From NCBI GenBank assembly GCA_021736305.1, contig JAIPGD010000008.1, positions 1 to 40,666 on the forward strand: a stretch of DNA of 40,666 nt, written 5' to 3'. Origin of the DNA: Candidatus Izemoplasma sp. (GTDB lineage: Bacteria > Bacillota_I > Bacilli_A > Izemoplasmatales > Hujiaoplasmataceae). A program made the position numbers and the translations under genes. Every line of letters starts with the position of its first letter. Position 1 is the first letter of the stretch. This document shows positions 6,062-20,136 of this stretch, piece after piece. The notes beneath the pieces were generated by a model, which saw only the letters and a list, made by a program, of their open reading frames with translations, ran no database searches and had not been told where the DNA came from.

Positions 6062-6125
6062 TGTTAAAATAATTAAGGTAGCCTTTTCGAAAGGAGGAAT
6101 TAAGTTTATAACTTAATACATTCAT
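6062..6125 (+). promoter_or_regulatory. mnmE promoter and structured leader with hairpin between SD and ATG
   Basis: An extended -10 element (TGtTAAAAT) lies at 6062-6070. A strong Shine-Dalgarno, AAGGAGG, is at 6091-6097, but the ATG is at 6126, 28 bases later. The gap holds a perfect inverted repeat, ATTAAGTT (6099-6106), loop TAT, AACTTAAT (6110-6117). Folding it leaves one base before and eight after the stem, an effective spacing of 9. A second short stem, CCTTT (6082-6086) with AAAGG (6090-6094), could instead cover the Shine-Dalgarno. An in-frame TAA at 6114-6116 excludes an upstream start. Confidence 0.6.
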
Positions 6126-7475
6126 ATGATATTCGATACAATAGTAGCAAAATCAACAGCTGATGGAATCAGCGCAATTAATATAATAAGAGTATCTGGA
6201 GATGAAAGTTTCACGAAAGTTAACGAAATTTTCAAAGGTCCTGATTTAACTAAAGCAAAATCTCATACAGTTCATTATGGCCATATTCATAATCAAGGTG
6301 AAATCATTGATGAAGTAATGGTATCTATTTTTAAAACTCCAAAGACCTTTACTACCGAAAATATTGTCGAAATATCTTGCCATGGTGGCAACTTTATTGC
6401 AAATGAAATCATTAAAATATTAATCTCAAATGGTGTAAGATTAGCTCAAAGAGGAGAATTTACTAAACGAGCATATCTTAATGGTAGAATTGACTTAACT
6501 GAAGCTGAAAGTATTATGGATATGGTTAATGCAAAATCTCACAACCAATTAAAAATAGCCAACGAACAACTACGTGGCGATGTAAAGGTTTTAATAAACA
6601 CTTTACAGGAGAATATTCTAAATATCATCGCGAACATTGAAGTTAATATTGATTATCCAGAATACGATGATGTAGAGGAACTAACCAATACATTAGTTAT
6701 TCCAAAGATAACTGGTTTGCTTGACAATATAAATAAAATAATCAAAGAGTCTGAAACCGGACAAGTTATTCGTGAAGGAATTAAAACGGTAATTATTGGT
6801 AAACCAAATGTTGGTAAATCAAGTTTACTAAATTCTTTACTAAAAGAAGATAAAGCAATTGTTACAGATATCTCTGGAACAACAAGAGATTTAATCGAAG
6901 CTGAGCTAAATCTAAATGGCGTTATACTAAAGTTAGTTGATACTGCAGGTATTCGTTCAACTAAAGATATAATTGAAAGAATTGGAATAAATAAATCTAA
7001 AAAAGCAATTTCTGAAGCTGACTTAATATTACTCGTTCTTAATCAATCTGAAAAACTAACGGAACTTGACAAAGAACTCTTAGAATTAACAAAAGGAAAA
7101 GAAAGAATTCTTATTGGTAACAAAATGGATCTTGGTAACAAACTTAACTTAGAGGGAGAATCAGTAATTAATATTTCCGCAATAAAAAATCAAGGACTTG
7201 ACCAACTAGCAAATAAAGTTAAACAATTATTTCTCAATGAAAAAATACTTAATAGTGACACAACAATTCTCTCTAACGCCCGACATATTGGTAAACTACG
7301 AGAGGTAAAAAAAGCTCTAGAAGATGCAATAAAAGCCGCTAAAGATAACTTGCCTATAGATTTTATTGAAATCGACCTAAGAAAAGCTTGGGCAAACTTA
7401 GGGGAAATAACCGGTAAAGCAACAACTGATGATTTACTTAATAATTTATTTTCTAAGTTTTGCTTAGGTAAATGA
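6126..7475 (+). CDS. mnmE: tRNA modification GTPase MnmE (TrmE)
   Basis: With MnmG it builds the 5-(carboxymethyl)aminomethyl group on wobble U34 of certain tRNAs. The 449-aa protein has the N-terminal formyl-THF-binding domain (DTIVAKSTADG start, SCHGG at 84-88, GEFTKRAYLNGRIDL at 110-124), a helical domain, and an inserted G domain: G1 GKPNVGKS at 225-232, the SGTTRD switch, DTAG, and NKMD. It ends in the conserved FCLGK with Cys446. In B. subtilis mnmE follows jag near the origin; here it is about 29 kb from jag, monocistronic, and head-on to replication. A parS-like site follows the stop codon directly. Confidence 0.97.
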   Translation: MIFDTIVAKSTADGISAINIIRVSGDESFTKVNEIFKGPDLTKAKSHTVHYGHIHNQGEIIDEVMVSIFKTPKTFTTENIVEISCHGGNFIANEIIKILISNGVRLAQRGEFTKRAYLNGRIDLTEAESIMDMVNAKSHNQLKIANEQLRGDVKVLINTLQENILNIIANIEVNIDYPEYDDVEELTNTLVIPKITGLLDNINKIIKESETGQVIREGIKTVIIGKPNVGKSSLLNSLLKEDKAIVTDISGTTRDLIEAELNLNGVILKLVDTAGIRSTKDIIERIGINKSKKAISEADLILLVLNQSEKLTELDKELLELTKGKERILIGNKMDLGNKLNLEGESVINISAIKNQGLDQLANKVKQLFLNEKILNSDTTILSNARHIGKLREVKKALEDAIKAAKDNLPIDFIEIDLRKAWANLGEITGKATTDDLLNNLFSKFCLGK

Positions 7476-14998: not shown

Positions 14999-16369
14999 TT
15001 AAAATTCACAGTGCTTAGGAGTTCTTGGAAAAGGTATAACATCTCTTATGTTATCTACACCTGTTACATACATAATCATTCTTTCTAATCCTAAACCAAA
15101 TCCAGAATGTTTATTTCCTCCATACTTTCTTAAATCCTTATACCACCATAAATCTTTATCGCTTATATTCATTTCTTCCATTCGTTTTTCTAAGTAATCT
15201 AATCTTTCTTCTCTTTGAGATCCACCAATTAATTCACCAGCAAGCGGTACTAATAAATCCATTGCCGCAACCGTTTCATCATCATCATTTAAACGCATAT
15301 AAAAAGCTTTTAAATCTTTTGGCCAATCAGTAACAAACACTGGCCCTCCAAAATGTTTGGTTAAAAATTTCTCATGTTCAGTTGCTAAATCATTGCCTTC
15401 AGCAGCTTTTATTGTGAATTTTTCATTGTGTTTTTTTAAAATTTCAAGCGCTTTTTTATAAGTAATGCGTATAAAGGTCTTAGTTTGGACATTTTTTAAC
15501 TTTTCAATTAAACCTTTTTCCACAAATTTATTAAAGAATTCTAATTCACTTTGACAATTTTTAAATAGATCGTCAATTATGAATTTTATCATTTCTTCAG
15601 CCAATTCCATGTTATCTTTCAAGTCAAAAAACGCTACTTCTGGCTCTATCATCCAAAACTCAGAAGCGTGCCTTGGAGTGTTAGATTTCTCCGCTCTAAA
15701 GGTTGGACCAAAGGTATAAACTTTGCTAAAAGCTAAAGCAAAGGCTTCCGCCTGTAATTGGCCAGTTACGGTCAAATTCGTCTTTTTACCGAAAAAATCA
15801 TTAAAAAAATCTTTTTCTGGCTTTTCACTATCTAGTGTGCTTACTTGAAATAACTCCCCTGCACCTTCCGCATCATTTGCAGTAATTAAAGGAGCGTGTA
15901 AATAAATAAAATTACGCTCTTGAAAGAAGCGATGTATTGCAAATGAAACAACAGATCTCACTCTGAATACTGCATTGAATAAATTAGTTCTTGATCTAAA
16001 ATGAGCATTCTCTCTTAGAAATTCTCGTGAGTGTCTCTTTGGTTGAATTGGATAATCTTCAAGTGAACCACCCTTTAATAAAATAGTTTCAGCTTTAACC
16101 TCAAAAGGTTGTTTCATATTTGGTGTTAAAACCAATTTCCCCTCAACTGAAATAGCCGAACCTACATTGAATTTTGCGACCTCTTTAAAGTTTTCTAATG
16201 CTTTATCTTCATAAACAATTTGTATTGATTCAAATGCAGTTCCATCATTTAAATCAATAAAACCAAATTCTTTTTGTGAACGATTGTTTCTAATCCAGCC
16301 CTTGAGTTTAATTTTTTTATCGACAAATTTCTTTGTATCTAATAATAATTTTTTTACTTCTGCATCCAT
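14999..16369 (-). CDS. asnS: Asparaginyl-tRNA synthetase
   Basis: Charges tRNA-Asn. The 456-aa class IIb enzyme has an N-terminal OB-fold anticodon-binding domain (KLKGWIRNNRSQKEFGFIDLNDG), motif 2 region (FGPTFRAEKSNTPRHASEFWMIEPE) and motif 3 (SGFGLGLERMIMYVTG), ending DVIPFPRTPKHCEF, the AsnRS rather than AspRS ending. Its ATG overlaps the end of the AlkD-like gene by 16 bases with GGGAG upstream. Both lie under a T-box leader with an AAC (Asn) specifier, so expression should rise when tRNA-Asn is uncharged. Confidence 0.97.
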   Translation of the reverse strand: MDAEVKKLLLDTKKFVDKKIKLKGWIRNNRSQKEFGFIDLNDGTAFESIQIVYEDKALENFKEVAKFNVGSAISVEGKLVLTPNMKQPFEVKAETILLKGGSLEDYPIQPKRHSREFLRENAHFRSRTNLFNAVFRVRSVVSFAIHRFFQERNFIYLHAPLITANDAEGAGELFQVSTLDSEKPEKDFFNDFFGKKTNLTVTGQLQAEAFALAFSKVYTFGPTFRAEKSNTPRHASEFWMIEPEVAFFDLKDNMELAEEMIKFIIDDLFKNCQSELEFFNKFVEKGLIEKLKNVQTKTFIRITYKKALEILKKHNEKFTIKAAEGNDLATEHEKFLTKHFGGPVFVTDWPKDLKAFYMRLNDDDETVAAMDLLVPLAGELIGGSQREERLDYLEKRMEEMNISDKDLWWYKDLRKYGGNKHSGFGLGLERMIMYVTGVDNIRDVIPFPRTPKHCEF

Positions 16370-17064
16370 TTGAAATCTCCCTTCAATATTCTTTTTCTTT
16401 CAGTTTCATTATGTTTTTCTATCGCATATCTTAAAGTCGTCCTAGGAAAACTATTATAGTTTTCTTTAATAAAATTATTTAACAACCCAATATTTTGTTT
16501 TCCTATTTCTCTTAACATCCATCCATTAGCTTTATGAATTAAATCATGATTGTGCTCTAATAATATTGAAATAATTTTTATAGGTAAAGTTAACTCACCT
16601 TTTTTTATTAAATATAAGTTAGAAACAATTGCTATTCTTTCTTGCCATAATTTATTTGAATAAGCTAATTCATATAAAATATTTTTATACTTTGTTAAAT
16701 ATACATATTTGCCAACAATATTAGGAGCTGATATATCAACCAAATCCCAATTGTTAACGTAGTCGATATACTTTGTATATGTTTTATAGTTTTCTTCAAT
16801 GATTTTTAAATCCGGTGTTTTGTTTCTATAAGTTAATATCATTAAAGCCACAGTTCTATATTCGTGTATTTTATTTGTTATTAACTTCACTAATTCTTTT
16901 TCAGTTATATTTTTATAATTTGTTTTTGCAATATTTCTTAAAGTTGGAGTATCGATTTTTAAAAAATAATCAACTTCATTTTCAATGTAATTTTTTTTAT
17001 GATATTTCGTAATATTAGTAATTTCACTATTTTCTTTTAATTTATTTAATTCATCTAAAATCAT
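16354..17064 (-). CDS. AlkD-like DNA alkylation repair protein (HEAT-like repeats)
   Basis: AlkD-family glycosylases remove alkylated bases such as 3- and 7-methylpurines using a HEAT-repeat fold. The 236-aa length fits. Recognisable family segments are YVNNWDLVDISAP (about residues 101-113), LWQERIAIVSNLYLI, HKANGWMLREIGKQN (about 178-192) and PRTTLRYAIEKH. Catalytic specificity is not proven from sequence. AGGAGG precedes the ATG. It is the first gene after the Asn T-box and overlaps asnS, so a repair gene appears placed under aminoacylation control. Confidence 0.88.
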   Translation of the reverse strand: MILDELNKLKENSEITNITKYHKKNYIENEVDYFLKIDTPTLRNIAKTNYKNITEKELVKLITNKIHEYRTVALMILTYRNKTPDLKIIEENYKTYTKYIDYVNNWDLVDISAPNIVGKYVYLTKYKNILYELAYSNKLWQERIAIVSNLYLIKKGELTLPIKIISILLEHNHDLIHKANGWMLREIGKQNIGLLNNFIKENYNSFPRTTLRYAIEKHNETERKRILKGDFKWMQK

Positions 17065-17082
17065 ATATCCTCCTATAAATAC

Positions 17083-17298
17083 AAAACGCCCTTTTATACA
17101 AAGGACGAATTTTTCGTGGTACCACCTTAATTCCGATAAACGGCACTTAAACTCTTTAACGCAGATTATACGGACAGGTCTACTAAATTCTTCTGTCTCT
17201 CACGGTGTTTTTTAAGCAAATGTATGTAAGGTTCCACCAACCCCTTACTCTCTAAAAAATACATTATTGCTTTACTCTTCCGATCAACGATTTATTTT
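17083..17298 (-). promoter_or_regulatory. T-box riboswitch, tRNA-Asn specific
   Basis: On the minus strand the T-box core AAGGTGGTACCACG covers 17115-17128, with UGGU for pairing to the tRNA acceptor end. The stem I AG-box/distal-loop element AGAGAGTAAGGGGTTGGTGG lies at about 17231-17250. An AAC codon followed by A (specifier at 17207-17209) sits in the expected specifier position between CCG and the paired arm TTGCTT. The terminator hairpin CGTCCTTT (17100-17107) with AAAGGGCG (17087-17094) is followed by TTTTG. AAC is an Asn codon, matching asnS downstream. Confidence 0.93.
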
Positions 17299-17307
17299 AT
17301 TATACCA
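17299..17307 (-). promoter_or_regulatory. T-box transcript promoter
   Basis: Extended -10 TGgTATAAT on the minus strand, immediately downstream of the prs stop codon; no clear -35. There is no separate hairpin terminator for prs, so readthrough from prs would also enter the T-box leader. Confidence 0.65.
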
Positions 17308-17326
17308 TAAATTAATTAAATATTAT

Positions 17327-18292
17327 TTATTCGCTAAATTTTTTTGTAAATAGAGAAGAAACTCCTCTATCATCAATTATATGAATAATACCTTCTCCAA
17401 TTAATTCTGAGATTGTTAATTGAACAAGTTTAGGAAATTTTTTACTTTCTGGTAATTGAATTGTATTAGTACAAATTATTTCTTTTATTTTTGAATCATT
17501 TAATATTTGTGGAGCATTTTTCGAAAATAATGGATGAGTACAACATGCATATAAGTCTTTAGCTCCCGCTTTTTCTAAAGCTTTAGCAGCAGCAACTATT
17601 GAACCGCCTGTATCAATCATATCATCAACGATAATACAATTTTTCCCTTTTACTCTACCAATTATATTCATTACTTCAGCAACATTTGGTTCTGGTCTCA
17701 TTTTATCAATAATAGCAATTGGAGATTGTAAAACATCAGCTAAATCTCTTGCTCTAGCAACACCACCATGATCTGGTGAAACAACGCATATGTCTGTTAA
17801 TTCTTTTTTTAGTAAATACTCAGCAATTATTGGTTGAGCTCTAAAATTATCAATTGGTATATCAAAGAACCCTTGAATTTGTGGTGCGTGTAAATCCATA
17901 GCTAAGACTCTTGTTGCTCCGGCTTTTTGTAATAGATCAGCGACTAGTTTCGCCGATATAGGTTGTCTTGCTTTCGCTTTTCTATCTTGTCTCGAATATC
18001 CGTAATAAGGCATTACGATATTGACTTCTCTAGCTGAAGCTCGCTTTAATGCATCAATCATAATTAAGAGTTCCATTGTGTGTTCGTTAACCGGTTCGCT
18101 TGTTGATTGGATTACAAAAACTTTGTGTCCTCTTACAGTCTCCGGTATATCAATACTAATTTCACCATCAGAAAATCTTGTAACCTCAGATTCGCTTAAA
18201 GGAATCCCGATATGTTCAGCTATTCCTTCAGCTAATTCTTTATTAGAACTTAATGAAAATAATTTAACCTTTGAACCATGAAATAAAGCCAT
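17327..18292 (-). CDS. prs: Ribose-phosphate pyrophosphokinase
   Basis: Makes PRPP from ribose-5-phosphate and ATP for nucleotide, NAD, His and Trp synthesis. The 321-aa protein has class I PRPP synthetase motifs: [20 protein letters not shown], the flexible-loop [34 protein letters not shown], and the PRPP loop [14 protein letters not shown]. The ATG at 18290-18292 is the only credible start, since an in-frame stop lies six bases upstream, yet its Shine-Dalgarno is 31 bases away behind a hairpin (see the leader entry). The order ispE-spoVG-prs matches the B. subtilis ispE-purR-yabJ-spoVG-glmU-prs block with genes lost. Confidence 0.97.
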
Positions 18293-18330
18293 AATTTATT
18301 TGCAATTTGTTAAAAAATTGCATTCCTTTC
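18293..18330 (-). promoter_or_regulatory. prs translation leader with hairpin between SD and ATG
   Basis: On the minus strand GAAAGGAA (18323-18330) is followed by TGCAATTT (18315-18322), a 6-base loop TTTAAC, AAATTGCA (18301-18308), then eight bases to the ATG. The stem is a perfect 8-bp inverted repeat. Linear spacing is 31 bases; with the hairpin folded it is 9. The layout matches the mnmE leader. Confidence 0.6.
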
Positions 18331-18396
18331 TTTCATTGATTTAACCATAAATATTATACAACATTTGGTATGAACATTAAAGACAAATTTTCAAAA

Positions 18397-18423
18397 GAAA
18401 AACACTAACTTATTCGTTAGCGT
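18397..18423 (-). terminator. Terminator overlapping the spoVG stop
   Basis: On the minus strand ACGCTAAC pairs with GTTAGTGT (one G-U) around the loop GAATAA, which includes part of the TAA stop, followed by TTTTTC. Confidence 0.7.
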
Positions 18424-18781
18424 CTTCTTCTTTTTCCTCTTTTTCTTCTTCTACTTCATCTTCATTTTCTTCTTCAGTTTCTTTTTCTTCTTCTTTTTCT
18501 TCTTTTTTAGGTTCGTCATCTTCTAATTCTGGAAGAGCATTAAAAGTATCTAATACTTCTTTCTCTATCATGCTTCTTGTTTCGGTGTTAATTGGATGTG
18601 CAACATCTTTATATTCACCATTTGGCATTCTTCGGCTTGGCATTGCTACAAACAAACCGTTTTTACCATCAATAATTCTTAATTCATGAATTACAAAGCA
18701 TTCATCGATAGTTATCGCTGCAATTCCTTTCAAACGATTATTCCCCTTAATTCTTTTTGCTCTAACTTCTGTAATTTTCAC
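18410..18781 (-). CDS. spoVG: SpoVG family regulator with long acidic tail
   Basis: SpoVG is a small site-specific DNA/RNA-binding regulator. Residues 1-85 match the family closely (MKITEVRAKRI, AITIDECFVIHELRIIDG, GLFVAMPSRRMPNGEYKDVAHPIN). The last 38 or so residues are almost all Glu, Lys and Asp, a longer and more regular acidic tail than usual, coded by a pyrimidine-rich stretch on the plus strand. The start is GTG with GAGGTGG four bases upstream. It lies between ispE and prs with its own promoter and terminator. No sporulation gene accompanies it here. Confidence 0.93.
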   Translation of the reverse strand: MKITEVRAKRIKGNNRLKGIAAITIDECFVIHELRIIDGKNGLFVAMPSRRMPNGEYKDVAHPINTETRSMIEKEVLDTFNALPELEDDEPKKEEKEEEKETEEENEDEVEEEKEEKEEDANE

Positions 18782-18800
18782 TTTACCACCTCTTGGACAA

Positions 18801-18830
18801 ATTATACCACGTTTATTTTTGATTTTTCAA
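18801..18830 (-). promoter_or_regulatory. spoVG promoter
   Basis: On the minus strand TTGAAA (18825-18830), 18-bp spacer, TATAAT (18801-18806) with extended -10 TGg. Confidence 0.75.
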
Positions 18831-18856
18831 TAGCATTGATAAAAATTAGTTTGATT

Positions 18857-19726
18857 TTATTTGATTTTATAGGCTCCAACAAAGTATTTATCCTTATTTT
18901 CATCAATAAAATCAATAATTTTGTTGTCTTCTTGTTTAATTATCTTTATAAAAGTTGAACCAGAACCTGTCATTACAAGGCCTTCTTCACCTAATTCAGA
19001 TACTAATTCAGTTTTAAACTTACTCATTCTTTCATCCTTTTTCATAACAATTTCTTCTAAACTGTTAAAAAGTGAATGTTGAATTAAAGCAAAATCATTT
19101 TCTTTTATTGCTTTAATAATTTTGCTGATATCAGCGTGTTTAAAACCAGATTGATCTCCTTCATCAAAAATAGTTTCAGTCGAAACATATATTTTAGGAT
19201 GAACAATAAGTATAAAATAATCACTTAACTTGTTTTCAAATTGATTAATTGTTTCTCCTTTTTCAGTTACTATAGCGGGATAATCAACTAAACAATAAGG
19301 TATATCCGCTCCAAACATAATACCAATTTCTTGCATTGTTTCTAAACTAAGATTTAAATTTTCTAGTTGATTAATGCCTTTTATAACTGAAGCTACATCA
19401 GTAGAGTTTCCTCCCAAACCTGCTCCATAAGGGATTCTTTTATCAATTGTAATTTCAATCCCTGAATTTAAGTTATATTTTTCTTGGATAAACCTTGCGC
19501 ATTGTAAAACAATATTATCTTGATTAGATAAAAACATATCGTTTGATTTAATTATTACACCGCTTGTCATATGGCATTTTTTTATTTTGATTTCATCATG
19601 CAAATTTATTTTTACATTTACCATTTCTAAATTATGATATCCATCTCTTCTCTTATCTAAAACATTTAAAAATAGATTCACTTTTGCATAAGCTTTTTCT
19701 TTAATCATTTTTTTCATTAAAGCCAA
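18857..19726 (-). CDS. ispE: 4-diphosphocytidyl-2-C-methyl-D-erythritol kinase
   Basis: Phosphorylates CDP-methylerythritol in the non-mevalonate (MEP) isoprenoid pathway. The 289-aa GHMP kinase has KAYAKVNLFLNVLDKRRDGYH at the N-terminus, the ATP loop PYGAGLGGNSTDVASVI, and MTGSGSTFIKI near the C-terminus. The start is probably TTG (MALMKK...): GGGAG lies eight bases before it, while the ATG three codons later is 17 bases away. Its presence implies the organism uses the MEP route. Confidence 0.95.
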   Translation of the reverse strand: MALMKKMIKEKAYAKVNLFLNVLDKRRDGYHNLEMVNVKINLHDEIKIKKCHMTSGVIIKSNDMFLSNQDNIVLQCARFIQEKYNLNSGIEITIDKRIPYGAGLGGNSTDVASVIKGINQLENLNLSLETMQEIGIMFGADIPYCLVDYPAIVTEKGETINQFENKLSDYFILIVHPKIYVSTETIFDEGDQSGFKHADISKIIKAIKENDFALIQHSLFNSLEEIVMKKDERMSKFKTELVSELGEEGLVMTGSGSTFIKIIKQEDNKIIDFIDENKDKYFVGAYKIK

Positions 19727-19803
19727 GGCTTTAACTCCCTCCCTATGACTTATTTACTTATATTTTATCATATCTTAATAAATAATTATAATTAAGTAAA
19801 AGT

Positions 19804-20136
19804 TTAACTCGCAATCTCTAGGCTTAAAACATCAATTGCAGGTATTTTTTCATTAGTAGAAAGTATCAATAATTTATGAATAAAATCAAGTTTTTTTATT
19901 TTTCCAAAACCATATTTAATATAACCATTTTCATAATATTCAATCTCAACTTCAAGGTTTTCTCTAATTGCTTGTTGAATATTTAAATTCAAAGTTTGAT
20001 ATTCATCATCACTTAAAATTGGCTTTTTGTTTTTTCTTGTGCGAAATTTCATTTCTTTTAACATTGTGCTATAACCGTTTAAAGCATTAAAAGGAGCCCA
20101 TTTAATAATTCCTCTATCAATATATCGACTAGGCAT
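19804..20136 (-). CDS. YolD-like protein
   Basis: A 110-aa YolD-family protein (MPSRYIDRGIIKWAPFNALNG is the family start; later NLEVEIEYYENGYIKYGFGKI). These small proteins are typically encoded with UmuC/UvrX-type polymerases in Firmicutes; the biochemical role is not established. The ATG at 20136 has AGGTGG five bases upstream. A GTG at 20145 would add three residues but would overlap the ribosome site. The ATG lies within the last codons of the polymerase gene, so the two are coupled. Confidence 0.88.
   Translation of the reverse strand: MPSRYIDRGIIKWAPFNALNGYSTMLKEMKFRTRKNKKPILSDDEYQTLNLNIQQAIRENLEVEIEYYENGYIKYGFGKIKKLDFIHKLLILSTNEKIPAIDVLSLEIAS

Follow-up and report, generated by a model that had tools for sequence, protein, structure and literature searches.

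Hairpins that may bridge distant Shine-Dalgarno sequences to the start codons of prs, mnmE and other genes in Candidatus Izemoplasma sp. and its genus

The split initiation region of phage T4 genes 25 and 38 was reportedly described by Nivinskas et al. 1999 and by Malys and Nivinskas. In gene 38, the Shine-Dalgarno sequence (SD) lies 22 nt from the AUG, a distance that falls to 5 nt in the folded RNA, and for gene 25 the corresponding values are 27 and 11 nt (PMC3014915). Mutations that destabilize the structure lower initiation at these “split” translation initiation regions, and the gene 25 arrangement is kept only in close T-even phages, being absent from distant ones (PMC3014915). Two further systems are related in part. 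At the split ribosome-binding site of E. coli thrS (Sacerdot et al.), the 30S subunit accommodates a folded hairpin in the bound mRNA without melting it (PMC3936740), and in Staphylococcus aureus there is extended SD/anti-SD pairing, with long SD helices and wider spacing (PMC13009471). Hairpin bridging has so far been known mainly from the two T4 genes. In the open-access literature we found the T4 cases but no report of recurrent chromosomal use of a hairpin-bridged SD, and its repeated occurrence in the housekeeping genes of a chromosome appears to be undescribed there.

The leader considered here is that of prs in Candidatus Izemoplasma sp., within a stretch of 40,666 nt (contig JAIPGD010000008.1, positions 1 to 40,666), which we refer to as the window. 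The lineage is uncultured and AT-rich, and gene content and best matches mark it as Bacilli-like. The features of the leader are the following:

17327..18292, minus strand: prs, ribose-phosphate pyrophosphokinase, 321 aa
18292-18290, minus strand: prs ATG
18293..18300, minus strand: 8-nt spacer AATAAATT from the hairpin to the prs ATG, without a second SD
18301..18322, minus strand: putative bridging hairpin TGCAATTT-TTTAAC-AAATTGCA, with a perfect 8-bp stem and a 6-nt loop
18324..18331, minus strand: prs SD AGAAAGGA, an 8-nt match to the 16S 3' tail (direct reading and the 16S end of genome G004)
18353..18358, minus strand: TATAAT, probably the -10 element of a promoter belonging to prs (GTTGTATAAT-like sequence is conserved in related prs leaders)

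The sequence-only reading of this DNA had placed the SD 31 bases from the prs ATG, which is correct when counted from GGA; from the end of GAAAGGAA (18330-18323, minus strand) the distance is 30 nt. The perfect 8-bp inverted repeat with a 6-base loop that it described can be read directly from 18322 to 18301. A single A (18323, minus strand) separates AGAAAGGA from the stem, and the coordinates confirm the proposed folded spacing of one plus eight bases, both here and at mnmE (below). As to the stop codon that was said to lie just upstream of the SD, a stop-like TGA is present at 18335-18333, but it is not in the prs frame. An in-frame TAA does occur at 18298-18296, between the hairpin and the ATG, and excludes that prs starts in frame further upstream. 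The 16S 3' end in the same-genus genome G004 is GGATCACCTCCTTTCT, so that AGAAAGGAGG is complementary to the 16S tail. With the SD held free, the hairpin has a predicted energy of -6.4 kcal/mol and predicted pair probabilities of 0.79-0.99. The gene upstream of prs is spoVG (18410-18781); the TATAAT at 18358-18353 and its context are conserved in related leaders, which suggests that prs has its own promoter. The transcript probably starts near 18346, with a 5' UTR of about 53 nt.

Several other readings of the prs leader were set aside. An overlapping small ORF, whose ATG lies inside GGAATG, is 1 base from the SD and is not conserved in G002 and other relatives, and a larger fold that pairs the SD with early codons is the best fold in G000 and is lacking in relatives. 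Over the prs leader, Rfam gives nothing at the gathering threshold and only chance-level matches (E 1.2-4.5), which argues against a riboswitch or a known cis-regulatory RNA family. In a scan of 17000-20000 for an intrinsic terminator or attenuator, the only hit is the terminator-like site of a T-box leader, and a plasmid search returned only distant prs genes. The T-box leader itself (Rfam RF00230, 121 bits) occupies 17098-17296 on the minus strand and precedes two genes, one of 236 aa and one tRNA-synthetase-like (14999-16369); its terminator-like stem is at 17107-17087.

The same layout is found in the window at mnmE:

6089..6097, plus strand: mnmE SD GAAAGGAGG
6099..6117, plus strand: putative bridging hairpin ATTAAGTTTATAACTTAAT, i.e., ATTAAGTT-TAT-AACTTAAT, 8 bp with a 3-nt loop, kept in 5 of 5 same-genus genomes
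6126..7475, plus strand: mnmE, tRNA modification GTPase, 449 aa (NCBIfam equivalog TIGR00450, 413.6 bits, cut-off 252.6)

Here GAAAGGAGG is followed by an A, the hairpin, 8 nt and the ATG at 6126. All five genus members have this layout, with stems such as TTAAGTT/AACTTAA, TATAAGTT/AACTTATA and TATAAGC/GCTTATA, and both AAGTT/AACTT and AAGC/GCTT stems are found among the orthologues in the genus. The stems of prs and mnmE had been called unrelated, and indeed no stem sequence is common to the genes. Other genera have mnmE leaders (e.g., L140, L142 and L148) in which GGTGAT lies 3-5 nt before the ATG and TAAAAT, resembling a -10 element, about 20 nt upstream; the gene seems nearly leaderless there, its SD leader being very short.

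For prs, the SD-hairpin-ATG arrangement is present in 15 of 15 readable leaders, which come from five genomes of the same genus (g1), six of g6 and four of g10, and all 15 have a AGAAAGGA-like SD. The three genera form one clade in the mnmE protein tree (support 100/99). In other genera of the family and in more distant Bacilli-like genomes, prs has a GGAGG-type SD about 6 nt from the ATG and is without the hairpin. The prs stems range from TGCAATTT/AAATTGCA and GCAATA/TATTGC to GACGAAC/GTTCGTC, ACGACAAAT/ATTTGTCGT and TATAATAAAT/ATTTATTATA. The last three and a close variant are the stems of the four g10 leaders, which are unrelated in sequence and occupy the same place, and therefore it is pairing and position that are conserved, not the letters. 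In the 11 alignable prs leaders, standard pairs occupy 66 of 66 stem cells, compared with 26-47% when the partners are slid, and the stems vary by an A-U to U-A (or U-G) change in one pair and by G-U exchanges in two further pairs. The covariation expected among relatives is thus found, in that the arrangement is kept with compensating stem changes; within the alignable set, compensatory change is confined to that one pair and the G-U exchanges, and the wholly different g10 stems provide the stronger evidence. No common palindrome of the kind expected for a DNA operator of a shared regulator was found, as the stems differ between genes and between orthologues.

The hairpin is predicted in all leaders when the SD is held free, weakly so in G023. 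Several stems are AU-rich and weak, at a predicted -3 to -5 kcal/mol, and for some full leaders, that of G023 (g6) in particular, the best fold is not the hairpin. The predicted stem probability of prs and mnmE is nearly flat from 25 to 45 C. The prs leaders of g6 and g10 (L006-L011, L023-L025 and L112) have a GGU 5-6 nt before the ATG, after the hairpin, and so the distant SD need not be the sole contact there.

At least eight gene families in the genus have the layout: prs, mnmE, efp, ackA, ispE, an oppB-like permease gene, pckG and the gene of an EAL-domain protein, the last six having been found by the scan of sampled stretches described below. The hairpin is present in 5 of 5 same-genus genomes for efp (with a stem that hardly varies), in 3 of 5 for ackA, and in 2 of 2 for the permease gene. 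The ispE leader, also in the window, is a weaker case:

19738..19742, minus strand: ispE SD GGAGG
19717..19734, minus strand: ispE hairpin TTAAAGC-CTTG-GCTTTAA, then 8 nt and ATG 19708; in 3 of 5 same-genus genomes

The mechanically called ispE ORF starts at TTG 19726, inside the hairpin region (19709-19742, minus strand); conservation puts the start at or near ATG 19708. An asnS-like tRNA-synthetase gene of G004 (L329:3523, minus strand) has a 14-bp perfect hairpin after AGAAAGGAG plus an AAGGA near the start. Because of this ordinary AAGGA the leader is left outside the eight families, although it is within the 11 scan loci below, and it is possibly an intermediate between the two leader types.

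The scan covered 708 kb of G000 (47% of the genome) and 400 kb each of G001 and G004, all of the same genus. Matches were scored as stem length plus SD length, with a score of at least 16 considered strong, and dinucleotide-shuffled spacers served as the control. With settings that were chosen after the two discovery cases (prs and mnmE) were known, there are 4, 5 and 5 strong matches in G000, G001 and G004, respectively, compared with 0.35, 0.28 and 0.24 expected from shuffled spacers. One alternative-start duplicate each in G001 and G004 and one terminator-like match were dropped, which leaves 11 distinct loci against 0.87 expected (13-fold enrichment, p 2e-9). The comparison with shuffled leaders that the sequence-only reading had proposed therefore gives a clear enrichment in the sampled stretches. 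When all prs and mnmE matches are left out, 8 loci in 6 gene families remain against 0.87 (Poisson p 4e-6 for loci, 3e-4 for families). Matches set aside are that at an M18-peptidase gene of G001, which has a 10-nt loop, and that at L191 of G001, which is followed by a T run and is terminator-like. From 4 strong matches in 47% of the genome, about 9 strong cases are expected per genome, or roughly 1% of genes.

Outgroup sequence was taken from orthologue loci and from loci on other genomes' contigs. Matches scoring at least 16 are absent from the 359 kb taken from G017 (genus g6), from the 199 kb of loci that represent other genera of the family, and from the 527 kb of loci drawn from diverse bacteria; the outgroup sequence without the layout amounts to 0.73 Mb, and in the sampled g6 and g10 sequence the layout occurs at prs only. 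The earlier proposal of a genome-wide translation strategy rather than chance thus holds in that the arrangement is recurrent, enriched and conserved, but its extent is narrower, at about 1% of genes in this genus plus prs in two sister genera. Bridging as a recurrent translation strategy is supported, and we infer an effect on translation.

The geometry of these leaders is uniform. Across 25 leaders from the genus, 0-4 nt separate the SD from the stem, and 6-9 nt the stem from the ATG. The aligned linear SD-ATG distance ranges over 25-33 nt and is correlated with the length of the hairpin (r = 0.85), while the folded spacing is 6-11 nt, with a median of 9 and a standard deviation of 1.1; in ordinary genes, SD spacing peaks at 7 and is mostly 5-8. 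A matched change in length is seen in ackA, where both the hairpin and the linear spacing have 4 nt fewer in G004 than in G003, and the folded spacing stays at 9. The two leader types can replace each other in orthologues: ispE has AAGGAGG, 8 nt and ATG in G003, and AAGGAGG, GA, a hairpin, 7 nt and ATG in G004. The orthologous leaders compared for five genes, 124 in all, comprise 26 with a hairpin but without a near SD, 84 with a near SD but without a hairpin, one with both, and a remainder that is weak or borderline (Fisher p 1e-19 for the mutual exclusion with weak cases assigned, which is indicative only as the leaders are related). A near SD is absent in 26 of 28 hairpin leaders. Absence of the stem together with normal SD spacing, which had been put forward as evidence against the idea, was found only in remoter relatives and, within the clade, for some of the genes; these cases support bridging, because the hairpin and the distant SD are gained or lost together. 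The SD of the hairpin leaders also tends to be of the 5'-extended type, GAAAGG being found in 7 of 8 hairpin gene families and in 63 of 845 ordinary leaders (7.5%), a preference that may in part come from the scan's scoring of SD length. Since extension is to the 5' side, the 3' part of the usual SD site is left free for the stem, and the preference perhaps gives the stem space beside the SD helix.

We consider it probable that the hairpin bridges the SD and the AUG so that the two function as a single ribosome-binding site. The strong SD, usually 5'-extended GAAAGGAG, would pair with the 3' tail of 16S rRNA, and the hairpin, 0-4 nt past the SD, would stay folded and be pushed out of the mRNA path, possibly stacking on the SD/anti-SD helix. 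The single-stranded linkers on the two sides of the stem would then set an effective spacing of about 9 nt and bring the AUG into the P site; the 2 nt in excess of ordinary genes may be needed to pass the foot of the helix. Under this arrangement the stem sequence would be free to drift while pairing holds, and the stem could change in length as long as the linkers do not. The hairpin would persist in the initiation complex, and its loss would be expected to lower translation. Four features of the T4 type are found here: a strong SD at a linear distance expected to be non-functional, no competing near SD in 26 of 28 hairpin leaders, a predicted hairpin that would restore the spacing, and a structure conserved in relatives.

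Other roles for the hairpin have to be weighed against bridging. The extended SD might serve as a standby tether for the 30S subunit, which would slide to an SD-less AUG, with the hairpin mainly keeping the AUG region open or blocking competing structures. The post-hairpin spacer is rich in A/T and largely free of structure, known standby sites include ones that accommodate hairpins (PMC3936740), and the GGU near the AUG in g6 and g10 prs fits this as well; a tether, however, needs neither a near-constant folded spacing nor compensating length changes, nor a stem that abuts the SD (0-4 nt) in every case, and we regard sliding as unlikely. That several housekeeping genes share the architecture, and that bridged translation could be regulated through its dependence on stem stability, would suit a hairpin whose folding is controlled by a protein, a small RNA, a metabolite or temperature, with prs, mnmE, efp and others switched together. 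Such joint control seems quite improbable in a gene set without functional coherence, where neither stem nor loop sequence is common to genes or orthologues, Rfam has no match, and the predicted stem probability of prs and mnmE changes so little with temperature.

Hairpins at the 5' end stabilize some Firmicute mRNAs, and the short 5' UTR that prs probably has from its own promoter would be compatible with a hairpin that shields the 5' end or serves as an RNase cleavage site and lies between SD and AUG only incidentally. The position of the hairpin is fixed relative to both SD and AUG, and the near SD is lost where a hairpin is present, so a role confined to stability or processing is very improbable. 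The case for chance palindromes in this AT-rich DNA is that perfect stems of 7 bp or longer abound throughout the 100 nt upstream of genes and that the shuffles give about one strong match per 1.5 Mb. Against it, stems are replaced yet conserved in the 15 prs leaders, mnmE and efp keep theirs in 5 of 5 genomes, and the 11 strong loci far exceed expectation; moreover, in G000 an SD of at least 6 nt directly precedes 4 of the 12 perfect stems that end 5-9 nt from the start codon and 0 of about 148 located elsewhere (p 2e-5). Chance as a general account is barely conceivable, and for prs, mnmE and efp it is refuted by conservation; for single-genome cases, e.g., the EAL gene, it is possible.

If the hairpins do bridge, the prs leaders of g6 and g10 may depict how the arrangement arose, with an extended SD (AGAAAGGA continued by GGU) split by the hairpin and its second half later lost in g1. 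A tentative and rather doubtful extension is that the genus made hairpin-bridged SDs a standing class, spread gene by gene from prs by such splitting; since stem stability would govern the translation of its members, they may be under coordinate regulation. Bridging would turn hairpin-bridged SDs from a phage curiosity into a recurrent, selected design of bacterial ribosome-binding sites, and the natural variation suggests that selection holds the folded rather than the linear SD-AUG distance. Gene finders and RBS calculators that limit the SD search to 4-15 nt from the start would take such genes to be SD-less or choose wrong starts. The replaced stems and matched indels are ready-made variants for studying how the 30S platform accommodates a hairpin.

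Compared with the known systems, the genus leaders resemble those of S. aureus in that AT-rich Firmicute-type ribosomes rely on long SD helices and wider spacing; S. aureus extends the SD towards the start codon, with no hairpin described, whereas the genus leaders extend it to the 5' side. With E. coli thrS they share, as proposed here, a ribosome that accommodates a hairpin. The thrS hairpin precedes an SD that stands at a normal distance from the AUG, while in the genus the hairpin lies between the SD and the AUG. The closest likeness is to T4 genes 25 and 38, where a distant SD (22-27 nt) is brought to 5-11 nt by an intervening hairpin. Bridging in T4 is proven by mutation, and in the genus it is proposed from sequence. 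Unlike the single phage genes of T4, the layout here recurs in at least eight unrelated chromosomal genes of a bacterial genus, with 5'-extended SDs, stems that are replaced between orthologues, and a near-constant folded spacing.
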